From the NCBI RefSeq assembly GCF_900636515.1, contig NZ_LR134287.1, positions 868,001 to 932,000 of the forward strand: DNA of 64,000 bases. The letters run 5' to 3'. Within the stretch, counting starts at the first letter, position 1. Each line of letters begins with the position of its first letter. This DNA comes from Neisseria animalis. GTDB taxonomy: Bacteria > Pseudomonadota > Gammaproteobacteria > Burkholderiales > Neisseriaceae. Below are positions 12,701-48,326 of this stretch, piece after piece. The translations under genes were made by a program, and so were the position numbers. Under the pieces are notes generated by a model. The model searched no databases. It saw only the letters and a list, made by a program, of their open reading frames with translations, and was not told where the DNA came from.

Positions 12701-12798
12701 CACGGCAATTTTATGGTGTATTGCGCTATCTGTCGGTATCATCCGCCATCACGGCAATTTTATGGTGTATTGCGCTATCTGTCGGTATCGTCCGCCAT
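12701..12798. repeat. 49-bp tandem duplication
   Basis: Units 12701-12749 and 12750-12798 differ by a single base (CATCCGCC versus CGTCCGCC). The second unit covers the last codons and stop of the MarR gene; the first is a non-coding copy in front of the Gdx-like gene. Confidence 0.9.
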
Positions 12799-13230
12799 CA
12801 TGTGCCGATTGTGCATGGTTTCGGCAAGAATATCCGCCAGCCGTGCCATTTGGGCGAGCAGTTGGCGGGAATTGTCTGCACCGAAACGTTGCAATGCAAG
12901 CGTTTCCATTGCCTGCATTTTTTCGGCAACCGGCTTGGCGTAAGCTGTGCCGCTTTCGGTAAGGAACATGATTTTTTCACGTCCGTCGCCGTTTGTATTC
13001 TGCTCAAAGCCGATATGGCCTTTTTCTGCAAGCTGTCGGCAGATGGAAAAAACAGTTTGCTTGGGCAAGTGCCAGAGTTCGCCAATTTGTTTTTGTGTGC
13101 AGCGGCCTTTGGTGGCCAGTGTGAACAGCACGGCTAAAGTGTTGTAATTTAATCCTTGCTGTTTTGCCCATTGGCTGTACAGGAGCTGTATTTTTAACAT
13201 CAGCCTGCTGATTTCTTTCATTGTGTGCAT
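12775..13230 (-). CDS. MarR family transcriptional regulator
   Basis: A 151-residue winged-helix regulator. LNYNTLAVLFTLATKGRCTQKQIGELWHLPKQTVFSICRQLAEKGHI is the recognition domain and NGDGREKIMFLTESG the wing, in standard MarR order; the terminal helices form the dimer interface. Starts at 13230 or 13221 are equally possible and neither has a strong ribosome site. It sits directly upstream of the Gdx-like exporter in the same orientation, suggesting local control of efflux. The effector is unknown. Confidence 0.85.
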   Translation of the reverse strand: MHTMKEISRLMLKIQLLYSQWAKQQGLNYNTLAVLFTLATKGRCTQKQIGELWHLPKQTVFSICRQLAEKGHIGFEQNTNGDGREKIMFLTESGTAYAKPVAEKMQAMETLALQRFGADNSRQLLAQMARLADILAETMHNRHMMADDTDR

Positions 13231-16780: not shown

Positions 16781-16887
16781 TATAGTCGAATAAAATAAGA
16801 ATGAGACAAGGCAGCGAAGCCGCAGACAGTACACATAGTACGGCAAGGCAAAGCAACGCTGTATCATTCTTATTTTAAATGACTATA
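16781..16887 (-). repeat. Correia-like repeat (CREE) copy C
   Basis: 107-bp copy in inverse orientation (begins TATAGTCGAATAAAATAAG, ends TTTAAATGACTATA), between the convergent DMT and rlmB genes. Confidence 0.85.
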
Positions 16888-17722: not shown

Positions 17723-17911
17723 GATGTTTTCTTTGGAAAGTCGTTTTGCAGACGGCATTATACCGCGTAGGGAAGGGAGCCGTTTGAAAATATGCAGCAT
17801 CATGCCCGCCGAAGGGGTGTGGAGGACTTTTTGCCGCAAGGAGCAGGCCGGCAGGTAATGCAGGCCGTCTGCAAATTTGCAGACGGCCTGTTCGGGTAAC
17901 GCTTCGGGTAA

Positions 17912-20825
17912 CTATGCCGGCATTGCCCTCCTGATAATCTGGGCAACCCTGTCCTGTTCAAACTGCGTAACAAACTTCACGTCAATTCCGCCGTCTTTGT
18001 TCATTGCGGCAAACCACCGCTCGGCGTGTGCGATTTTCTGTTTCTCGTTTTGGCGCAAGCCTGCGCCGTCTGCCACGCCTTTGCTTTCCACCACCAAATT
18101 CAGGCTTTCGCCTTGGCAGGTTTTGACGATGTAGGCAAAATCGGGCGAATAGGTTTCGCCGCCTGCCACAGGGATTTTAATTGCCCGTTTTGGGATTTTG
18201 GTAAACACCACCACTTCTTGAATTTCGCTGCCGGTGATATTTTGCTGTTCGATTTGGCTGTCAAAAAACACCTTGTCAAACAAGAAACTTTCCAAAGGTG
18301 TTGCGTTGCTGTCGATTATGCCCCAATCTTGGTTGATTTCAATTTCATCAAACGGCTTGCCCTGATGGTCAGTGAGTACGGTCGGATGGATTTTGCTGCT
18401 GATTTTTTGGTAGCCCACTTCAAACTTGCTTAGCGAATGGTGCAGTAAATATTGGTTAAACCCTTGTTGAATGAAACGGATAGTGTCTTCGTTCATAAAT
18501 CGGGTAATCTCGATTTGCTCTTTTAATTCAAAAAAGGCTTGGTGCAATGTTGCCATTTTGACAAACATCTTTTGTGCCAGTTTTTCTAAAAAAAGCACGG
18601 TATGTTAAGGTTGCAATCGGCTCAAACAGCTCTTCTTCCACACTTTCCGCTTGCTTAAAGCCGATCATTCCGCTGTCGATTTTAACCATTTCCTGCGTTT
18701 GGATACGGATAGCCGTAGCGGTAAAGCGTGATTGGTTTTCTTCCAAAAAATCTTTAAATAGTTGCAGCGTTTGGCTTTCCGTCATCTCATAACGCAACAC
18801 CGCCTTGTGGTTAATCGCTTCCCACAACGCTTTTAATTCATCGTATTTGCCGACACGCACCGCCGCTCTGTTTTTGCTTTGTTCTTCGGCATTGCGGATT
18901 TTGCCTTGTTTCAATTTAGCCGTACCGAAAGCGTTTGGAAATTTGGCTTTGATTTCGGAAAATGCACCGTCTGCCAAATTATCATCTTCATCAATCAAGT
19001 CCAAATCATAAAGCTCGTTGGCAAGTGGTCGTTTTTTAACATCAGGATAAGCCGATTTGATTTTTTCAAAAAGCTCATCGTTAAATTGGGTATAAACCAC
19101 TTCACGCGCGCCGCTTTGATTAACTTCATCAGTCAGTTTTTTGACAAAATCACGCTCGCTGCTGTCCACAAAATAATGCAACTTGAAATCGCCGTCTTTC
19201 ACACGGCTCATATATTCGTTTACGGGCAAACGCAATCCCCGCCCGACTTCTTGCAGTTTGCTGGTTTCAGATCCGCTGGAACGCAATTTGCAAATGCCGA
19301 ATACATTGGGATTATCCCAACCTTCACGCAACGTCCATTTTGAGAAAATAAAACGGCGTGGATTATCCAGCGACAGCAAACTTTCTTTATCGTGCAGAAT
19401 CTCGTTGATTTCTTGGGCGATTTTTTCATCGTCCGAGCTGTTGTCTTTGGAAAAATAACCGCCGTGCGTGGCGGATACGTCTGCCAGCACATCTTGCAGT
19501 GAAAGATAAAATGCCGAGCCCGCTTCTGCCGTCTGCAAAACACGCTGTGCTTCGGTTTTGACAATCTCTTCAAAACGGTTTTTCAAGCTGCCCGAAAGGT
19601 TGCCGCCGTCCCGATAGCCGGCAATATCGTCAATAAAAAACAGCGTCAAAGGCTTGATTTTGTCCGCACGGCTTAAAAAGCGTTTTTCATTGTCAAAATG
19701 CGTGCGGACGGCTTTTCGCATCATCATCTCAAACACATCGTCCGAATACGAAAACGGATAAATGCCGTCGCCTTTTTTCAGCTCGACACCGTTGCTTAAA
19801 ACCGCCGTGGTTTTATTTAAATGTTCCAAATATAAACCGTCTATATGAGCGTGGATTTTGTGCAGGCTCTCGCCCTTGTTCAGATAAAATTTCTGCTTCT
19901 CAAACTCAAAAGTTGCGGTTGTACCGTCGCTGTCGGTAAAGCGGATTTTGTCTGTCTTTTCGCCCTCTGTCTGCTGGATATGTGCCACCACGCCTTTCAC
20001 CAAATCCTGATTAAACGCATCAACGGCAGACAAACGATAAAGCAGGTTTTTAAATTTGTCGTTAAAAGTTGCCCCATAGCGTAAAACATATTGCGGGCTC
20101 AAGCTCATCAATGCCTGCCACGTTTTATTGCTGTCGTCAAAGCGGTGCGGTTCGTCAATGATTAAAATTGGCTTCACCGATCCGATGGCCTCAAAAGGCT
20201 TGTCAAACTTATCTTTAAGCAAAACGCTGCCGTCATTGCCCTTATCCTCGCCACGCATGGTTTTGCTGTTTACCATACCCATATTGAGCAGCAAAACGTG
20301 GATTTTCTCGGCATTATCGGCTTGCACGAAACGCACGATTTCAGACGGCATAGCACTGGTACGTTTGCCTTTTTTCGCCTTTTGGCTTTCCACCGTATAA
20401 AGCTCGATTTGTGCCTGTCCGTATTCATTGTCAAAATCCAGCCTGAAATGGTTTTTCAACGCCTCCGAACTTAAAAACTGCTGCGTTCCCGCCTTAATGG
20501 ATAAAGTCGGCACAACGATGACAAATTTATACACGCCCAACTGCTTGTGCATTTCATACATCGTTTGCGTGTAGGTATAAGTTTTGCCCGTACCCGTTTC
20601 CATCGCAATATCCAGCACATTGGAAAAATCGGGCGATTTGTCAATGCGGTTGTCCGCTTGGGTTTGGCGGATATTTGCTTGGTAACGCTCGCTTGATAAG
20701 GTCAATGTCGGATTTTCGCCGGTGTCGTTATTTTGCTTGTGGGCACGGTCAAACACGCCCAATACCGCCCGCACCGCACCGGTTTGGTGGGGTAAGCCCT
20801 TTTCATAATGAAAACCTTTTTTCAT
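17912..20825 (-). pseudogene. type III restriction subunit Res (system 1), split by a frameshift
   Basis: Two overlapping reading frames make up one Res protein of about 970 residues. The first (20825-18528) carries the SF2 helicase: Walker A METGTGKT at about 75-82, DEPH box, and the GREGWDNPNVF and VGRGLRLP motifs. The second (18598-17912) carries the PD-(D/E)xK nuclease (YSPDFAYIVK ... VVESKG). They are joined by a T7 run on the coding strand (18588-18594); six Ts would restore one frame through RAFLEKLAQKM. As read, the helicase would lack its nuclease. It could be phase variation, decay or a sequence error. The start lies 1 bp after the mod stop. Confidence 0.85.
18588..18594 (-). repeat. 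T7 homopolymer at the Res frameshift
   Basis: Seven As on the plus strand (Ts in coding sense) at the point where the helicase frame leaves the nuclease frame. Removing one base gives a continuous Res. Confidence 0.8.
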
Positions 20826-20826
20826 C

Positions 20827-22683
20827 TCAATACCTCACCAATAGCGACAAATGCAGATTTTTCTTATTGTTGTAAGTATCCAATGCCTGCTTCAATTCCA
20901 TCTGCTTGGCACTCTCCACATTCGCCCCAAACAGCACAATGCGTTCCGCTAAAAACGCCTTGTCCGTATCCAACTTGTCCAACAACGCCTTAATATGCCC
21001 GCTCTCAAAATCAGGCTGAATCAAATACAGGTTTTTACCGCACAAATGTGCAAAATAACCGCCAAAATCAACCGCTTGTACGGGTTCAGTCAATGCATTG
21101 CCGTCATACAGCCGCCAAGTGGTTAAAAGCGTATGATATTCCTCATCGCTCAACATACGGTTTAGTGTGCTAGGCAACTCATACTGCGGACTCAATGCTT
21201 CATCATCTATCGCACGGAAATCATCAGCCGTCTCAAAAATCCGAAAGCCCAAATCGCCCTCATAATCAGGGAAATCTTGACGGATTTTGACGGACGCTTT
21301 TTCAAGACGGGCTTTGGTGATGTCAAAAATGGTTTTGTAACCTGCATTTGCTGCTTCTTTTTTGGGTTTTTCATCAAGTTGAATTAAGATAAATCGGCGA
21401 TTTCCACCAAATCTATTTGAGTTCAATACAGCGTGTGCAGTTGTCCCTGAACCTGCAAAAAAATCTAAAATAATATCTTGATTATTATCACTGGTAGATA
21501 ATTTTAATATCCTTTCTATTAATGCTATTCCTTTAGGGTCACTAAAAATGCCTTTACCTAATAAATCTGCTAATTCTTCATTATTTCCGTGAGAATGCCC
21601 CACATCTTCATAATTCCATAAAGTTCCACAAGTAATACCATCTCGAACTTCACTTAAATATGTTTTTTTATCAACTCCGCCATTTTTATTAAAGTACAAA
21701 GCCCCCTCATCATATAATTCTTGCAATCTTTCCTTTGAATATCTTGGGTAACGCCCAGTAGGTGCAGTCCATTCAATTCCATTTGGAAAAACTATTGTAT
21801 AAATTCCACTATCTGAGCCACTTCTTGCGTGAATTGGCGTTGCTTTCCAAGCTCCTTTTGGATCATTATCTCTATTCTTATAATCTTTATTTTGCTTCTC
21901 TGTTCGTTCAAGTAAATTTAATGAAAATTTGGATTTGTTTTTTGAATAACAAAGAATATGCTCGTGTTGATATGACACATCAGTATCATTTGAGACTGTA
22001 TATTTATTATTCCAAATAAACCCAGCAACAAAATTCTCCTCCCCAAACACCTCATCACACAACAATTTCAACTGTGCCTGTTCGTTATCGTCAATACTGA
22101 TAAAAATCACGCCATCATCTTTAAGCAGCTCGCGTGCCACATACAGACGCGGATACATAAAAGTCAGCCACGCGCTGTGGGAATTGGATTTCTTGGCGGT
22201 AAAATCCAGCACACGGCGGGCTTCGTCAAGGCTCATATCGGCAAGCTCGGTAAGTTTTTCGGGCGTAAATTTGCGGTCGTCCTGATAAACAAAGCCGTCC
22301 GAACCCGTGTTGTACGGTGGGTCGATGTAAATCATCTTGACCTTGTTTTGATAGGCGTGTTTCAGGTGTTTGAGCACTTCCAAATTGTCGCCTTTAATCA
22401 GCAGATTTTGGCTGTCCTTGTTTTCAGGCAGGGCGTTGTGGGCGGTGTCTTCACCCAACAAAGTAACGGGCGGACACTCACGCAGATAGCGGGCATAAGA
22501 TTTGCCCAACCAGCCCATCGAATAAGATTCACGGCTGACGGGAATATCGGCAGAACGAAGCTCCTCTGCCATTTTGTCGGGCAGAAAGTTGCCGTGTTTG
22601 TCGAAGCATTGGGGGAAGTGATTTTTTAGAATTTCAATAGACGGATTTTGAGGCGCTTCAAATAGCTTTTCGGAGATAATCAT
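20827..22683 (-). CDS. type III DNA adenine methyltransferase Mod (system 1)
   Basis: A 618-residue beta-class adenine methyltransferase. DPPYNTG is at residues 121-127 and DFFAGSG at 407-413, with the target recognition domain between. The 5' and 3' parts have host-like composition and uptake sequences nearby, but the TRD segment (about 21380-22030) is markedly AT-rich, suggesting TRD exchange. GGAGG lies correctly spaced before ATG 22683. Res follows after one base. Upstream are an AACGC repeat tract, a TTGACA box and a CREE. Mod sets the sequence specificity of both methylation and restriction; its switching would alter gene expression genome-wide. Confidence 0.93.
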   Translation of the reverse strand: MIISEKLFEAPQNPSIEILKNHFPQCFDKHGNFLPDKMAEELRSADIPVSRESYSMGWLGKSYARYLRECPPVTLLGEDTAHNALPENKDSQNLLIKGDNLEVLKHLKHAYQNKVKMIYIDPPYNTGSDGFVYQDDRKFTPEKLTELADMSLDEARRVLDFTAKKSNSHSAWLTFMYPRLYVARELLKDDGVIFISIDDNEQAQLKLLCDEVFGEENFVAGFIWNNKYTVSNDTDVSYQHEHILCYSKNKSKFSLNLLERTEKQNKDYKNRDNDPKGAWKATPIHARSGSDSGIYTIVFPNGIEWTAPTGRYPRYSKERLQELYDEGALYFNKNGGVDKKTYLSEVRDGITCGTLWNYEDVGHSHGNNEELADLLGKGIFSDPKGIALIERILKLSTSDNNQDIILDFFAGSGTTAHAVLNSNRFGGNRRFILIQLDEKPKKEAANAGYKTIFDITKARLEKASVKIRQDFPDYEGDLGFRIFETADDFRAIDDEALSPQYELPSTLNRMLSDEEYHTLLTTWRLYDGNALTEPVQAVDFGGYFAHLCGKNLYLIQPDFESGHIKALLDKLDTDKAFLAERIVLFGANVESAKQMELKQALDTYNNKKNLHLSLLVRY

Positions 22684-22710
22684 TTGACTACCTCCAGAGA
22701 AAAAATTAGA

Positions 22711-22776
22711 TTATTGCGTTGCGTTGCGTTGCGTTGCGTTGCGTTGCGTTGCGTTGCGTTGCGTTGCGTTGTTCAT
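22711..22776 (-). other. repeat-containing upstream ORF before mod 1
   Basis: ATG at 22776 follows AAGG and reads through the pentamer tract (N-A-T-Q-R repeats). With eleven units it ends at TAA 22713-22711. With a unit number divisible by three it would run to a TGA that overlaps the mod ATG as ATGA. It may therefore act as a switch through translational coupling; see findings. Confidence 0.5.
22716..22770 (-). repeat. pentanucleotide tract, eleven AACGC units
   Basis: Eleven perfect GCGTT units on the plus strand (AACGC in the mod sense), 33 bases upstream of the mod start. Length and purity are those of a slippage-prone contingency repeat. Confidence 0.95.
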
Positions 22777-22802
22777 TTTCTACCTTTATTTTGATTTGTC
22801 AA
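22775..22802 (-). promoter_or_regulatory. possible mod 1 promoter
   Basis: TTGACA (22802-22797) and GAAAAT (22780-22775) with a 16-bp spacer, ahead of the AACGC tract. If used, transcription would start inside the tract. Confidence 0.45.
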
Positions 22803-22820
22803 GTGTTTTTTTGAATGATT

Positions 22821-22927
22821 TATAGTCGAATAAAATAAGAATGAGACAAGGCAGCGAAGCCGCAGACAGTACACATAGTACGGCAAGGCAAAGCAACGCT
22901 GTATCATTCTTATTTTAAATGACTATA
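22821..22927 (-). repeat. Correia-like repeat (CREE) copy D
   Basis: 107-bp copy identical in core to copies A and C, inverse orientation, upstream of mod 1. Correia elements elsewhere are known to carry outward promoters and IHF sites, so it could feed transcription into mod. Confidence 0.85.
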
Positions 22928-23092
22928 AAATATTGCCCAGTATATTCATTATGCCATAACTTGTGTGCTGATAACCGGAGAAATCCGTTTTAAGCTGAAA
23001 AAGCGGATAGGGCGGTTTGTTTGGCAGGTAATCGGCGGAGCGGGGTGGTGTTTGTCCAATCTTCAGACGCCGGCGGGCTGTCGGAACGGATT

Positions 23093-23124
23093 AAAGGCCG
23101 TCTGCAAATTTGCAGACGGCCTTT
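23093..23124 (-). terminator. perfect uptake-sequence palindrome after rpoD
   Basis: AAAGGCCGTCTGCAAA directly joined to its complement, a 16-bp perfect dyad without spacer. A further uptake sequence overlaps the rpoD stop codon (23142-23156). Confidence 0.8.
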
Positions 23125-23153
23125 GCTTGTATACGCGGATTTTGCAGACGGCC

Positions 23154-25103
23154 TTAAGACTTGTTGTCTTCACTGTCCAAGAAGCTCTTCAGGCGGTCGC
23201 TGCGGGTCGGGTGGCGCAGTTTGCGCAGAGCTTTAGCTTCGATTTGGCGGATGCGCTCGCGGGTTACGTCAAACTGTTTGCCCACTTCTTCCAATGTGTG
23301 GTCGGTATTCATGTCGATACCGAAACGCATACGCAGCACTTTGGCTTCGCGCGGGGTCAGGCTTTCGAGCACTTCTTTGGTTACTTCGTGCAGGCTGGAA
23401 TACATGGCGGCATCGGCAGGAGCAACGTTGTTGGCATCTTCGATGAAGTCGCCCAAGTGCGAATCGTCGTCGTCGCCGATGGGGGTTTCCATGGAAATCG
23501 GTTCTTTGGCGATTTTCATGATTTTGCGGATTTTGTCTTCCGGCATTTCCATCAGCTCGGCCAGTTTGGCGGAATCGGGTTCTTCGCCGTTTTCCTGCAG
23601 GTATTGGCGGGAGATGCGGTTCATCTTGTTGATGGTTTCAATCATGTGCACCGGAATACGGATGGTGCGTGCCTGATCGGCAATCGAGCGGGTAATGGCT
23701 TGGCGGATCCACCATGTGGCGTAGGTGGAGAATTTGTAGCCGCGGCGGTATTCGAATTTGTCCACCGCTTTCATCAGGCCGATGTTGCCTTCTTGAATCA
23801 GGTCGAGAAACTGCAAACCGCGGTTGGTGTATTTTTTGGCGATGGAAATCACCAGGCGCAGGTTGGCTTGAATCATTTCCTGCTTGGCGGCGGCGGTTTC
23901 TTTTTCGCTGACAACCATGTTTTTGTTGATGGCTTTCAACTCTTCAATGGAAATACGGGTGGTTTTTTCCATTTCCGACAATTCGGTCTGCTTCTCGATG
24001 ATGGCGTGGCGGAAGCGGTCGAGTGCGTCTGCCCATACGCGGCCTTTGGCAATTTCTTCCTCTACCCATTGCAGCTCGGTAATGGCGGGCAGGAAGTTTT
24101 GGATAAAGTAGTCGCGATCCATGCGCACGCGGTCGGTACAGATGTCGCGGATTTCGCGTTCGATACGGCGGATGTTGTCAACATGGCCGCGCAGGGTGTT
24201 GCTCAGGTTTTCGATTTGACGGGTGGCAAAGCGGACTTCCAGCAGTTTGGCGGCGATGGCGTCGCGGTGTCGCAGGTAGTCGGGGTGGCGGCTGTGGTTT
24301 TGCTCCAGCGCGCTGACCATTTGTGTGTAGTCGGTTTCGATTTGGGCGAAGTGTGCCAATACTTTTTGTTTTAATTCTTCTAAGTTGGCGGCGGACATGG
24401 TTTCGGCATCGTTGCCACCGTCGTCCTCGTCGCTTTCGTCGTCATCTTCGCTGCCGTCTTCTTCTTCGCTGCTGTCTCCTGCTTCGGGGGCGGTGCTCTC
24501 GAGATGACCCAGACCTAATTCGTTCAGCAACACTTCGTTAGGGTCGATAATGGCTTCAACCACTTCATCGACACGGATTTCGTCTTTGCGGATTTGTTCG
24601 ATCAGGCCGAGGATTTCGGCAATCGAGCCGGGGCAGGCGGAGATTGCCTGTACCATGTTTTTCAGGGCGTTTTCGATTTTTTTGGCGATGATGATTTCGT
24701 CTTCGCGGGTCAGCAGGTCGACCTGCCCCATTTCGCGCATATACATACGGACGGGGTCGGTGGTACGCCCGAATTCGGAGTCCGCATTGGATAATGCGGC
24801 TTCGGCTTCTTCTACGGCATCGTCATCGGTAATCGAGGCGGCGTTGTCGCTCAATAAAATGTCTTCCGCATCCGGTGCCTGTTCGGTAACTTGGATGCCC
24901 AAGCCGGAAATCATGCTGACGATATTGTCGATTTGATCGGCATCGGACATATCGTCGGGCAGGGCGTCATTGATTTCGGAGTAGGTGATGTAGCCGCGCT
25001 CTTTGCCCATGATGATGAGCTGGCGCAGGCGTGCGCGCTGCTCTTCTACGGTCAGCGGACGGTTGTCGTCTTGATCTTGGTATTCTTCGTGGTGTTGGGA
25101 CAT
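23154..25103 (-). CDS. rpoD: RNA polymerase primary sigma factor RpoD
   Basis: A 649-residue group 1 sigma-70. Region 1.1 is at the N-terminus, [21 protein letters not shown] is region 1.2, a long acidic non-conserved region follows ([20 protein letters not shown]), then region 2 ([43 protein letters not shown]), region 3 and region 4 ([30 protein letters not shown]). Start 25103 begins the conserved protein, after AAAGAGAT. It forms the dnaG-rpoD part of the macromolecular synthesis operon; rpsU is not next to it. Confidence 0.97.
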
Positions 25104-43560: not shown

Positions 43561-45585
43561 ATGAACAAAAAACAAAATAAACTTCTTTCCACCCTGAAAA
43601 ATTCTTTGTATCCTTGCGATGGTATTTGGGTTAATGATGATAAAATGGAATTAGCACATAATTTATTGCTAGATAAATTAGAAAAATACGATCCTGATAT
43701 AATGACTGCATTGTTGAATGATGCTGAACTAAAACGCCGTTTTTTTGTAGAAGTGGCTGGGGTATTTGTTTTCAAAAAAGCCGATTTCCAATTCTTTCTA
43801 TCGCAAAACAAAGTTAGTCATTCTTACACCAAATACAAAAACCGTATTGGTTTAACTGACGGTAACCGTTTTTTGAAAGATAGTAGTGATATTGTGCTAG
43901 ATTTTCCATTTAAAGACTGCGTGTTAAAAGGGGGGCAAAGTTCAGAAGAAAGTAAAGAAGTGTATTTTGAACGCAATAAGGACGCTCAGCTCAGCTCAGC
44001 TCAATTGTACACTAAACAAATAACGAAACGTCAAGAAATTTTTTTCAATCAAGTATTAGCATTTGATGAAATAGACCGTTTATTTGATCCCAAGGCTCTT
44101 ACTCATTTTTCTCGCTACACTAAAGACGGTAAAAGTGCCGTTACACAAATCAAACGTCGCACTGACGGCACACCTACTGAAAATCTCATTATTAAAGGCA
44201 ATAATCTTATTGCCCTGCATTCTCTCGCCACGCAATTTCGGGGCAAAGTAAAATTGATTTATATTGATCCACCGTATTATTTTAGAAAAACTAAGGCGGA
44301 AGATAGTTTTGCTTATAACTCTAATTTTAAGTTATCTACTTGGCTAACATTTATGAAAAATAGATTAGAGATTGCAAAAGAATTATTAACAGATGATGGT
44401 GTTATATTTGTATCAATTGATGATGATGGATTAGCACATCTTAAATTGTTAATGGACGATATTTTTACAAAAGAAAACTTCATTGCTTATTTTATGTGGA
44501 TGAAAACAGCTACTCCACCATCATTATCCAAAAATGTCAGAAAAAAATTAGAGTATGTTTTATGTTATCGTAAAAATACATTTGAAGGACTATTTGGGGG
44601 TATAGTTGAAGGTGGAGATATGCCTTTATTAAACGAAAGTAATGCTTTAAATACCTTAGAGTTTCCTGCTTTTTCTGTACAATTTAAAATTCCTGACGGA
44701 ATTTATTATCCTGCTAAAAAAGATAAAACAACGCTGGAAAGTGAGTTAGTTGTTTGTAATGGTTGGAATAGTACTCCTTTCAAATTATCAGGTAATTTCA
44801 AATGGACACAAAGCACAATAACAAAGGAAATTGAAAATAATACAACTTTTATTATTAAATCTGAAAAATTTGCTATTCGTTATATTCGAGAAGGAGAGCG
44901 CAATAAAAAGCCATCTAATTTCATTAGTAAAATAGAATGTGGTGTAGGGACAAATGAAGATGCCAAAAAAGAACTATTTGAGTTATTTCAAAAAGATCTT
45001 TTTAAATATCCAAAGCCTGAAAGTCTAATTTCGTATTTAATCAATACAGCTACAAACGAATCTGACATCGTCCTTGACTACCACCTCGGATCAGGGACAA
45101 CCGCTGCTGTGGCGCATAAAATGGGGCGACAATATATTGGCATCGAACAGATGGATTATGTGGAAACCCTTGCAGTGGAGCGGTTAAAAAAAGTGATTGA
45201 CGGCGAGCAAGGTGGTATTTCTAAAGAGATAAACTGGCAAGGTGGTGGCGAATTTGTCTATTGCGAATTAGGTGAGTGGAATGCACAGGCGAAAGCCGCC
45301 ATTTTGGCTTGCGATAATTGGGTGGAATTAGACCGCTTGTTTACCGAATTGTGTGACAAATATTTCTTAAAATATAACGTCAACGTGCAAAAATTTGCCA
45401 ATGAAATTTGCCAAGAACCCGAATTTTTAGCCTTAACGTTAGATGAACAAAAGCAGATGATGTTGGAAATGTTGGATTTAAATCAACTTTATATAAATGT
45501 GTCTGATATGAATGATAGCCAATTTGAGTGTGGATTAAATCAAGAAGATAAAGATTTAACATTAGAATTTTACGGAATGAAATAA
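43561..45585 (+). CDS. type III DNA methyltransferase Mod (system 2), ModA-like
   Basis: A 674-residue beta-class adenine methyltransferase. The N-terminal part (FFVEVAGVFVFKKADFQFFLS, YKNRIGLTDGNRFLKDSSDIVLDFPFKDCVL) is very like phase-variable ModA proteins of Neisseria and Haemophilus. Four GCTCA units encode residues 142-148. DPPYYF is at about 236-241 and DYHLGSG at about 506-512; the TRD lies between. Gain or loss of one unit would stop translation early. Its stop overlaps the res start (TAATG). The ribosome site is weak. Confidence 0.93.
   Translation: MNKKQNKLLSTLKNSLYPCDGIWVNDDKMELAHNLLLDKLEKYDPDIMTALLNDAELKRRFFVEVAGVFVFKKADFQFFLSQNKVSHSYTKYKNRIGLTDGNRFLKDSSDIVLDFPFKDCVLKGGQSSEESKEVYFERNKDAQLSSAQLYTKQITKRQEIFFNQVLAFDEIDRLFDPKALTHFSRYTKDGKSAVTQIKRRTDGTPTENLIIKGNNLIALHSLATQFRGKVKLIYIDPPYYFRKTKAEDSFAYNSNFKLSTWLTFMKNRLEIAKELLTDDGVIFVSIDDDGLAHLKLLMDDIFTKENFIAYFMWMKTATPPSLSKNVRKKLEYVLCYRKNTFEGLFGGIVEGGDMPLLNESNALNTLEFPAFSVQFKIPDGIYYPAKKDKTTLESELVVCNGWNSTPFKLSGNFKWTQSTITKEIENNTTFIIKSEKFAIRYIREGERNKKPSNFISKIECGVGTNEDAKKELFELFQKDLFKYPKPESLISYLINTATNESDIVLDYHLGSGTTAAVAHKMGRQYIGIEQMDYVETLAVERLKKVIDGEQGGISKEINWQGGGEFVYCELGEWNAQAKAAILACDNWVELDRLFTELCDKYFLKYNVNVQKFANEICQEPEFLALTLDEQKQMMLEMLDLNQLYINVSDMNDSQFECGLNQEDKDLTLEFYGMK
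43984..44003 (+). repeat. pentanucleotide tract, four GCTCA units
   Basis: Four perfect units within the mod 2 reading frame, at the position where ModA-type genes carry their slippage repeats. Short, so slow switching is expected. Confidence 0.85.
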
Positions 45586-48326
45586 TGGAAAAGACGTTAT
45601 TTGATATTATTGAACGCCGTAAGGAGATCTATTTAGACGACGGCGATGAAGAGAAATTAACTATTCCTAAATTTGTCAACCAAAACCTAAAATATCCGTT
45701 TTTTGATTGGCAAAAATCGGCATTGGAAAATTTTCTGATTTTTGAACGAACCAAAAACTTTAAAGATTTTCCAGAATTAAAAAATAAACCAACCCATTTG
45801 CTATTTAATATGGCAACTGGAGCAGGCAAAACAATGATGATGGCTGCACTGATACTTTATTATTTTGAAAAAGGCTATCGTCATTTTCTATTTTTTGTGA
45901 ATCAAAATAATATTGTGGATAAAACCGAAAACAATTTTATCGACAGCTTGCATTATAAATATTTATTTCAGCCAAAAATTTTGCTGGGTGATAATGTGAT
46001 TCCCATAAAAAAAGTGGAGACGTTTAGTCCGAATCCAAATGGCATTGAAATTAAATTTACTAGCATTCAAAAGCTGTATAATGATGTACATATTGAACGA
46101 GAAAATCAAACCACTTTGGCAGATTTACATCAGTTGAAACTCGTGATGTTAGGCGATGAAGCCCATCATTTAAACTCACAGACCAAAAGTAAAAAACAAA
46201 TGCCGTTGGATTTAAGCACGGAATTGAATGGCAAGGCGAGCGATGATGAAATCGAACGCAAAGGCTGGGAACATTTGGTACTAGATTTGCTGTTACGCAA
46301 AAATGGTAAGCCAAGTGAAAATGTGTTGCTGGAATTTACCGCTACCTTGCCTGAAAGTGAAGACGTGGCGAGAAAATATGCCGATAAAATCATTACTAAA
46401 TTCCCGTTGAAAGCATTTTTGCAAGCGGGCTACACCAAGGACATTAACCTTGTTTCATCGCAATTGCCGAAAAAAGAACGTGTGCTACATGCCTTGCTAT
46501 TTGCGTGGTATCGCCATCAACTTGCCTTAAAATATGGCATTGCTAACTTCAAGCCAGTTATGCTATTTCGCAGTAAAACTATTGATGAATCTCGTGCTGA
46601 TTATGAGCAATTTTTACAATGGACGGAGCAGGCAAATGCCGAAGATTTTACTTTTTTGACTGTACTTTCCAGCCAGTTGAATGATGCGGAAAACGCCAAT
46701 CAGCAAGGTAAAACACGCACTGAACAGGCTTTGCGTTTTATGCAGGCACAAGGACTAAGCCACGCTCACTTGGCAAAATGGGTGCAGGAAAATTATCAGC
46801 CGCATAATGTGATTATCACCAACTCACAAACCAACAAAACCAAGAAAGAAAAAACCGATGTGGAAACTGAAAAACTGCTGAATAACTTGGAAGCAGCAGA
46901 TAACCCTGTGCGAGCTATTTTCACAGTAGATCGCCTAACCGAAGGTTGGGACGTGCTGAATTTGTTCGACATTGTGAGATTGTATGAAGGGCAAAATGGT
47001 GGTGGCTCAAATAAACGATCAGGCAAAACTGCCGCCACAACTGTTTCTGAAAAGCAACTGATTGGGCGTGGTGTGCGTTATTATCCCTTTGCTTTTGAAG
47101 GCAAATTACCGAATAAACGAAAATTTGAGGGTGTTGAACACGAGCTGAAAATTTTAGAAGAATTGTTTTATTACACCTTTGATGAGCAATCTCGCTATAT
47201 TTCCGAGCTGAAAGACGAATTACGCAAAGATGGCTATCTATCTGAAACTAGTAACAACAAAGTGAAACTAAAATTTGCACTTAAGCCTGAACTTGCCGAG
47301 AATGACAGTTTTAGAAATTTGCTGATTTGGGCGAATAAAAAAGTACCTAACCCGAATGCGAAGGCAAATAATGCGGCAAGTTTGCAAGACTTAAAGCCAG
47401 TGTTAAAAATCATAGTGCATAACAGCAAAGTGCTGCAAGAAACACATTTCACTGCCGATGAAACCACCGAACAAGTGCAGCAATTGGGCATAGAAGAAAA
47501 CCGCACAGAAATTTTAACTTTAGGAGAAATTGAACAGCATATTTTCGCCAAAGCAATTCATATTAAAAGCAAAAATAGTAATTCTTTGTTCCATTTCGAG
47601 CGCTTGCAAACAAAATTAGGCATTATCAGCCGTGCTGAATTGCAAACGATTCTGCTCAAAGATTGGCAAGTGGAATTTTTAGGGCTGGATGGCTATGGTG
47701 AGATTTCCTCAGACGATAAATTAAACGCATGTTTGAAAGCGTTAGAAGCAGTGGAAAAACACTTGCAACAAACCCATACGCCATTTATCGGCAGCAAAGC
47801 TTTCACCCCGAAAAAATTGTGGGAGATTTTTGGTCAGCCAAAAGAAAAATGGGTGGATAAAGACAAGGTGAAGCCAAATGTAACACAACATTCGTGGTAT
47901 GCTCTTGATCATTTTGCTGGCACAAAGTTGGAAGAAGACCTAATTACCTTTATTGCTCACCGAATGGGAAATTTACAAACGAAATATGATGTGCATTTAT
48001 TACGCAATGAAGAAGTACTGAAACTAAGCAATTTCACCGATGGCGAAGGATTTATGCCAGATTTTATTTTGCTGTTAAAAGATAAAGTAAAATCTACCGC
48101 TAACGGCATGCAAGATTTTCTGCATTACCAAATTTTCATTGAGCCAAAAGGTGATCACTTAGTAGAAAAAGACCAATGGAAAGAAGCTTTCTTACAAGCA
48201 ATTACTGATGAATACGGCAAAGATCGCATATTGCAACAGGACACACCGCATTATAGATTGATTGGGTTGCCGTTTTATGAAAATGAAGAAATAAAATTTA
48301 CTACTGCTTTTCAGATGCTTACTTAA
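45585..48326 (+). CDS. type III restriction subunit Res (system 2)
   Basis: A 913-residue Res with an intact frame. Walker A MATGAGKT is at about 77-84, DEAHH near 197, the RLTEGWD and IGRGVRYYPF helicase motifs in the middle, and the C-terminal PD-(D/E)xK nuclease (MPDFILLLKDK ... IFIEPKGDHL). It cuts about 25-27 bp from a recognition site with two Mod subunits, using ATP-driven translocation, by family knowledge. Translation is coupled to mod. Followed by an intrinsic terminator. Confidence 0.94.
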   Translation: MEKTLFDIIERRKEIYLDDGDEEKLTIPKFVNQNLKYPFFDWQKSALENFLIFERTKNFKDFPELKNKPTHLLFNMATGAGKTMMMAALILYYFEKGYRHFLFFVNQNNIVDKTENNFIDSLHYKYLFQPKILLGDNVIPIKKVETFSPNPNGIEIKFTSIQKLYNDVHIERENQTTLADLHQLKLVMLGDEAHHLNSQTKSKKQMPLDLSTELNGKASDDEIERKGWEHLVLDLLLRKNGKPSENVLLEFTATLPESEDVARKYADKIITKFPLKAFLQAGYTKDINLVSSQLPKKERVLHALLFAWYRHQLALKYGIANFKPVMLFRSKTIDESRADYEQFLQWTEQANAEDFTFLTVLSSQLNDAENANQQGKTRTEQALRFMQAQGLSHAHLAKWVQENYQPHNVIITNSQTNKTKKEKTDVETEKLLNNLEAADNPVRAIFTVDRLTEGWDVLNLFDIVRLYEGQNGGGSNKRSGKTAATTVSEKQLIGRGVRYYPFAFEGKLPNKRKFEGVEHELKILEELFYYTFDEQSRYISELKDELRKDGYLSETSNNKVKLKFALKPELAENDSFRNLLIWANKKVPNPNAKANNAASLQDLKPVLKIIVHNSKVLQETHFTADETTEQVQQLGIEENRTEILTLGEIEQHIFAKAIHIKSKNSNSLFHFERLQTKLGIISRAELQTILLKDWQVEFLGLDGYGEISSDDKLNACLKALEAVEKHLQQTHTPFIGSKAFTPKKLWEIFGQPKEKWVDKDKVKPNVTQHSWYALDHFAGTKLEEDLITFIAHRMGNLQTKYDVHLLRNEEVLKLSNFTDGEGFMPDFILLLKDKVKSTANGMQDFLHYQIFIEPKGDHLVEKDQWKEAFLQAITDEYGKDRILQQDTPHYRLIGLPFYENEEIKFTTAFQMLT

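Follow-up and report, generated by a model that had tools for sequence, protein, structure and literature searches.

The window analyzed here is a 64,000-nucleotide stretch of the Neisseria animalis genome (contig NZ_LR134287.1, positions 868,001 to 932,000). It contains mod 1, a gene for a type III DNA methyltransferase of the modO group, whose leader carries a pentanucleotide repeat tract inside a short upstream open reading frame (uORF). Positions are those of the window, and all features of this locus are on the minus strand. The mod 1 gene (20827 to 22683) encodes a 618-residue protein with an N6_N4_Mtase domain and an EcoP15I C-terminal domain, and res lies downstream. In the direction of the minus strand, rpoD is followed by a short inverted-repeat element, a TTGACA box, a Shine-Dalgarno (SD) sequence, the uORF ATG, the tract, a TAA, a GGAGG, and the mod start. 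The TTGACA box (22797 to 22802) forms, with GAAAAT at 22780-22775, a promoter-like site of unsure role (a 10/12 match with a 16-base spacer). The site stops short of the tract, and transcription from it would start about 8 nt inside the uORF. The SD of the uORF, read from the sequence, is AAAGG (22783 to 22787). The uORF itself (22711 to 22776) begins at ATG 22776-22774, has 21 codons at the 11 repeat units sequenced, and stops at TAA 22713-22711. The tract is (CAACG)11 plus CAA (22714 to 22771; 11.6 copies with 100% match by TRF). Exact (AACGC)4 occurs at this site alone in the 2.24 Mb genome, where a single array gives 8 overlapping registers. When as many as 3 mismatches are allowed, the repeat pattern has 9 matches in the window compared to 0.06 expected, and 9 was reached by 0 of 100 shuffles.

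The tail between the tract and the mod start (22680 to 22713) determines where ribosomes leaving the tract in each frame would stop. The mod 1 ATG (22681 to 22683) overlaps a TGA (22682-22680) as ATGA, and the frame that reaches this TGA, here called the coupled frame, is open while the other two are closed. At 9 or 12 units the uORF terminates at the TGA of the ATGA, giving peptides of 28 and 33 residues. At 10 units it terminates at a TAA 22 nt 5' of the mod ATG, and at the sequenced 11 units at a TAA 27 nt 5' of it. The stop/start overlap is present only in the 9- and 12-unit phases and is absent from the sequenced phase. The sequence-only reading had described the tract, the uORF, and the frames at 9 to 12 units, and frame computation agrees with it to the base. 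Three expression states would follow, and the stops at -22 and -27 may act alike. Immediately past the tract a stop closes the mod frame, so Mod is extended at no unit number. An in-frame N-terminal Mod extension of the kind found in modA, modB, and modD was rejected because the mod frame is closed from tract to mod in all 10 tract loci compared below.

A hairpin is predicted over the start of mod 1 (22671 to 22696), with TGGAGGTAGT (22696-22687) pairing to ATTATCTCCG (22680-22671). The mod SD, GGAGG (22691 to 22695, eight bases 5' of the mod ATG), is in the stem, where it pairs with mod codons 2 to 5, and the start codon is in the loop. The predicted local energy is -15.0 kcal/mol (z -3.7). 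This is the lowest value among 25 picked gene starts in the window; the mean of the remaining 24 is -3.7 and their minimum -11.9. When all 136 SD-preceded ATGs in the window are considered, genes or not, 10% fold as well as mod 1. The whole 136-nt leader folds no better than shuffled sequences, and its centroid structure consists of the mod SD hairpin alone.

Relatives were collected from at most the 30 best matches per genome search, so the list is partial and the larger groups are sampled. A Mod tree of 41 rows places mod 1 and Moraxella catarrhalis ModO in one 13-row clade (support 100/99), of which 10 rows have a tract and 3 a leader ORF without repeats. In the five modB rows, which form a sister group, the tract is in frame. 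Several rows stand outside the counts: L102, whose start is not covered, and a 141-residue fragment in G065; the 146-residue L114 in G070; the broken pieces in G328; and the second G634 copy. The second G622 copy enters only the tally of leader stops and ATGA overlaps. L137 has the same first 300 bases as L136, and neither it nor the second G150 copy was treated separately. G901 was left out wherever the uORF ATG is needed because its contig begins inside the tract. No relative was found on viral contigs. Both states are seen among the sequenced tract loci, coupled (G043 and Pelistega) and uncoupled. In Pelistega indica (L010), reading from the mod ATG meets a stop after 16 codons, and the open Mod frame can be read from a GTG located four bases farther on.

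The coupled frame is open and both other frames are closed in 9 of the 10 tract loci; at the tenth (G649) one frame terminates 8 nt inside mod. Shuffled tails show this pattern of one open and two closed frames in 8 to 19% of cases per locus. The probability of the 9/10 pattern is 3.7e-7 if the loci are taken as independent, but the tails fall into about four families and the loci are therefore not independent; one locus per tail family gives 4e-4. Asking only that the coupled frame be open gives 2e-4. G058 and G072 were set apart because a promoter-like site lies within their uORF, and without them the pattern holds at 7 of 8 loci, with a probability of 1.8e-5. Between the tract (or the uORF ATG) and mod, stops make up 3 of the 212 coupled-frame codons; for the other two frames the counts are 23 of 207 and 20 of 203, related rows included. 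Four repeat-free uORFs, in two copies from M. macacae and two from G622, end exactly in ATGA, and the repeat-free leader ORF of G057 ends 18 nt before mod. The ATGA by itself was dropped as evidence, as homologues that lack a uORF carry it too. Selection on the leader peptide was not supported: replacement changes exceed silent ones in the four comparisons with more than two changed codons. What is kept across the relatives is an open path to the mod start and not the peptide.

An SD precedes the uORF ATG in 11 of 13 loci compared to 2.16 expected, which speaks for a transcription start farther upstream. A uORF that has an SD and terminates no more than 40 nt from the mod start is found in 11 of the 13 loci classed as having a uORF and in 0 of the 6 classed as lacking one. 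The predicted hairpin accompanies the uORF. G043 (-14.3, z -5.2) and G901 (-12.9, z -4.3) have a 12-pair version, and the predicted energies of six homologues without a uORF are -0.8 to -3.1 with z above 0.6. An uninterrupted helix of at least 6 base pairs over the SD occurs at 10 of 14 uORF loci and at none of 6 loci without one (Fisher p 0.011); no such helix is present at the uORF loci G058, G072, M. macacae copy a, and G622. Shuffling gives a combined p for the helix of 6e-7 when 13 loci are included, and of 0.03 or 1.5e-4, depending on the locus chosen, when each family is represented once. Seven leaders were compared by alignment of the hairpin arms only, in place of a MAFFT alignment that was not aligned by structure. 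Three of the eight pairs have changed on both sides, and two measures of covariation were reached by 12 and 23 of 500 shuffles.

These features are probably parts of one switch, in which the number of repeat units sets Mod translation by hairpin-gated coupling through the uORF. The uORF, with its own SD and ATG, would be translated through (CAACG)n. Slipped-strand mispairing would add or remove units and so alter the frame of the ribosomes leaving the tract. In one frame of three (9, 12, or 15 units), ribosomes would terminate on the mod start in the hairpin loop, the terminating ribosome would open the helix that hides the mod SD, and the same or another ribosome would start mod. In the other two frames, including the one sequenced, ribosomes would stop short, the hairpin would stay closed, and Mod would be low. 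Methylation, and with it the expression of other genes, would be expected to change with Mod level. The Mod protein itself would be the same at every unit number. A hidden SD that is opened by a ribosome stopping in the loop is textbook translational coupling. The sequence-only reading had offered coupling through a tract-bearing uORF as a possibility, and comparison with relatives makes it the best-supported explanation by virtue of the open coupled frame, the uORF SD, the repeat-free uORFs ending in ATGA, and the hairpin that goes with the uORF.

Three points weigh against this interpretation. Transcription could begin within the tract, from the promoter-like site. The uORF is doubtful at two of the ten tract loci, G058 and G072, which may belong to the other, transcriptional kind. 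Finally, the published M. catarrhalis mRNA is maximal at 10 units, and the flanks of another strain predict 11.

A rival explanation, of which the sequence-only reading had raised a form, is that the tract is a transcriptional or leader-length switch. RNA polymerase would start at the tract edge from TTGACA-16-GAAAAT, the uORF ATG would lie outside the mRNA, and the units would alter mod mRNA through the initially transcribed sequence, the leader length, or stability. Among promoter-like matches in the region this site scores highest, it is equally placed in G043 and M. catarrhalis, and in G058 and G072 the tract is preceded by TTGACA-16-TACAAT. Since mRNA that is not translated is often unstable, mRNA changes do not separate coupling from a transcriptional switch. 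The modO mRNA shifts about 20-fold with unit number in the available text of PMC7302503, and the modO authors expected transcriptional switching according to the accessible part of PMC6241649. However, under this explanation the SD of the uORF would be idle, the coupled frame would have no reason to be kept open in relatives, and repeat-free uORFs would not be expected to persist in M. macacae and G622. Two modB leaders match the promoter consensus even better (11/12) at the same distance, although their tract is described as lying at the 5' end of the coding region and switching the gene by frameshift (PMC4685087, in the part available). A promoter-like site thus does not preclude translation from an ATG behind it, and we consider a transcriptional switch unlikely.

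The tract might also be a relic of an in-frame N-terminal repeat, with mod expressed at a steady level from its own SD and the units inert. The GGAGG in front of the mod ATG, the sister modB group with in-frame tracts, and the resemblance of the post-tract bases to in-frame mod genes in several relatives are all consistent with such an origin. An inert tract fits poorly with the pattern of one open and two closed frames at 9 of 10 tract loci, with the predicted hairpin over the mod SD, or with the modO expression that tracks unit number in the text of PMC7302503 at hand, and we regard this explanation as quite improbable. Ribosomal frameshifting at the overlap, which could use the junction of the uORF frame and the mod start at AAATGA to join the uORF product to Mod in one repeat state, is highly improbable, as mod has its own SD and start and the leader peptide is not conserved.

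Leader ORFs with tracts are also found outside the clade. In G012 (ACGC-type, L042) and G003 (CACCG-type, L035), which belong to a different Mod lineage, the tract lies in a leader ORF; of the three frames, one ends 13 nt inside mod and two end well before it. These two loci hint either at repeated origins of the layout or at movement of leaders from one mod gene to another. The sequence AATTATAC (or ATTATAC) directly follows the tract both in mod genes with an in-frame tract and in those with a leader ORF (L020, L029, L031, L033, L035, L038, L042, L176, L177, and L179), a recurrence that hints at leaders having been exchanged between mod genes. One further array, (AACGC)14 after an SD-led ATG, was seen at L056 in G014 near an unrelated gene. 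With less assurance than for mod 1 itself, we lean toward extending hairpin-gated coupling to the modO group as a whole (Neisseria-like, Moraxella, and Pelistega). Through the reading frame, leader-ORF repeats of 4, 5, or 7 bases would decide whether the hairpin over the mod SD is opened by a terminating ribosome, with the enzyme sequence untouched, and the second Mod lineage (G003 and G012) would have reached a similar layout.

The closest known system is modO of M. catarrhalis, a member of the same Mod clade. Like mod 1 it has a CAACG tract upstream of the annotated ORF, where the available portions of the published work take it as transcriptional (PMC6241649, PMC7302503), and it likewise has a uORF with one phase ending in ATGA. 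The sequence-only reading had placed the repeats of known phase-variable mod genes within the reading frame, which modO contradicts. In M. catarrhalis strain 23246 the modO unit number varies and the mRNA follows it (PMC7302503, as far as its available text goes). The modB gene of Neisseria, and likewise modA and modD, resembles mod 1 as a type III mod with 4- or 5-base repeats near the start, but in the sections of PMC4751487 and PMC4685087 available these repeats lie within the mod frame and alter or truncate Mod. The M. catarrhalis genes uspA1 and uspA2 share with mod 1 a tract upstream of the ORF, and their expression is graded; unlike mod 1, they have no leader ORF described in the accessible text, where the units act on transcription (PMC7302503). 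Textbook translational coupling, including the gene clusters covered in the available part of PMC3711429, likewise involves an overlapping stop and start and a downstream SD held in a helix. That coupling is fixed, whereas in mod 1 the repeat tract would turn it on and off. A literature search combining the repeat unit with Neisseria found no paper. A search for CAACG, Neisseria, phase variation, and repeat returned only the M. catarrhalis modO work (PMC6241649, PMC7302503), and among the matches listed for coupling and phase variation no mod leader of this layout was seen. The layout is a variant of the phase-variable type III mod genes and not a separate kind.

The res gene of the same system (17912 to 20825) is divided into two overlapping frames, 18528-20825 and 17912-18598. 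The frame changes at or near a seven-T run (TTTTTTT, 18588-18594, minus strand), so res may be subject to phase variation of its own, lack activity, or have been assembled incorrectly. For the inverted-repeat element just 5' of the leader (22814-22934; also 16791-16877), 14 further copies with 97-100% identity were found among 15 scored of 324 candidates in the genome. It is presumably Correia- or ATR-like and may be the source of a promoter. The mod and res genes (17839-23154) are placed between rpoD and rlmB. In G009, rlmB follows rpoD by 99 bp with nothing between, which means that mod and res were either acquired here or lost from G009; rlmB was not found in the short stretch fetched from each of four other genomes. 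A second type III mod-res pair is on the opposite strand of the window (43561-48326); its mod stop and res start share one base. Two more mod-like genes are present in the same genome (G000:C1:220445-221293 and 226950-228509); the region of the latter and mod 2 have near-identical scores in G009. Elsewhere in the window, a 49-base sequence occurs in two tandem copies that are 98% alike (12701-12800).

If the coupling interpretation holds, the unit number and the flanks alone could reveal the ON state, and more than two expression levels would be possible. The tiny ORF ending in ATGA in the repeat-free relatives would also be explained. A switch placed in the leader could in principle act on any downstream gene. 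Surveys that seek only repeats within ORFs may miss this layout or, as for modO, call it transcriptional. Phase-variable methyltransferases can switch sets of genes, called phasevarions.
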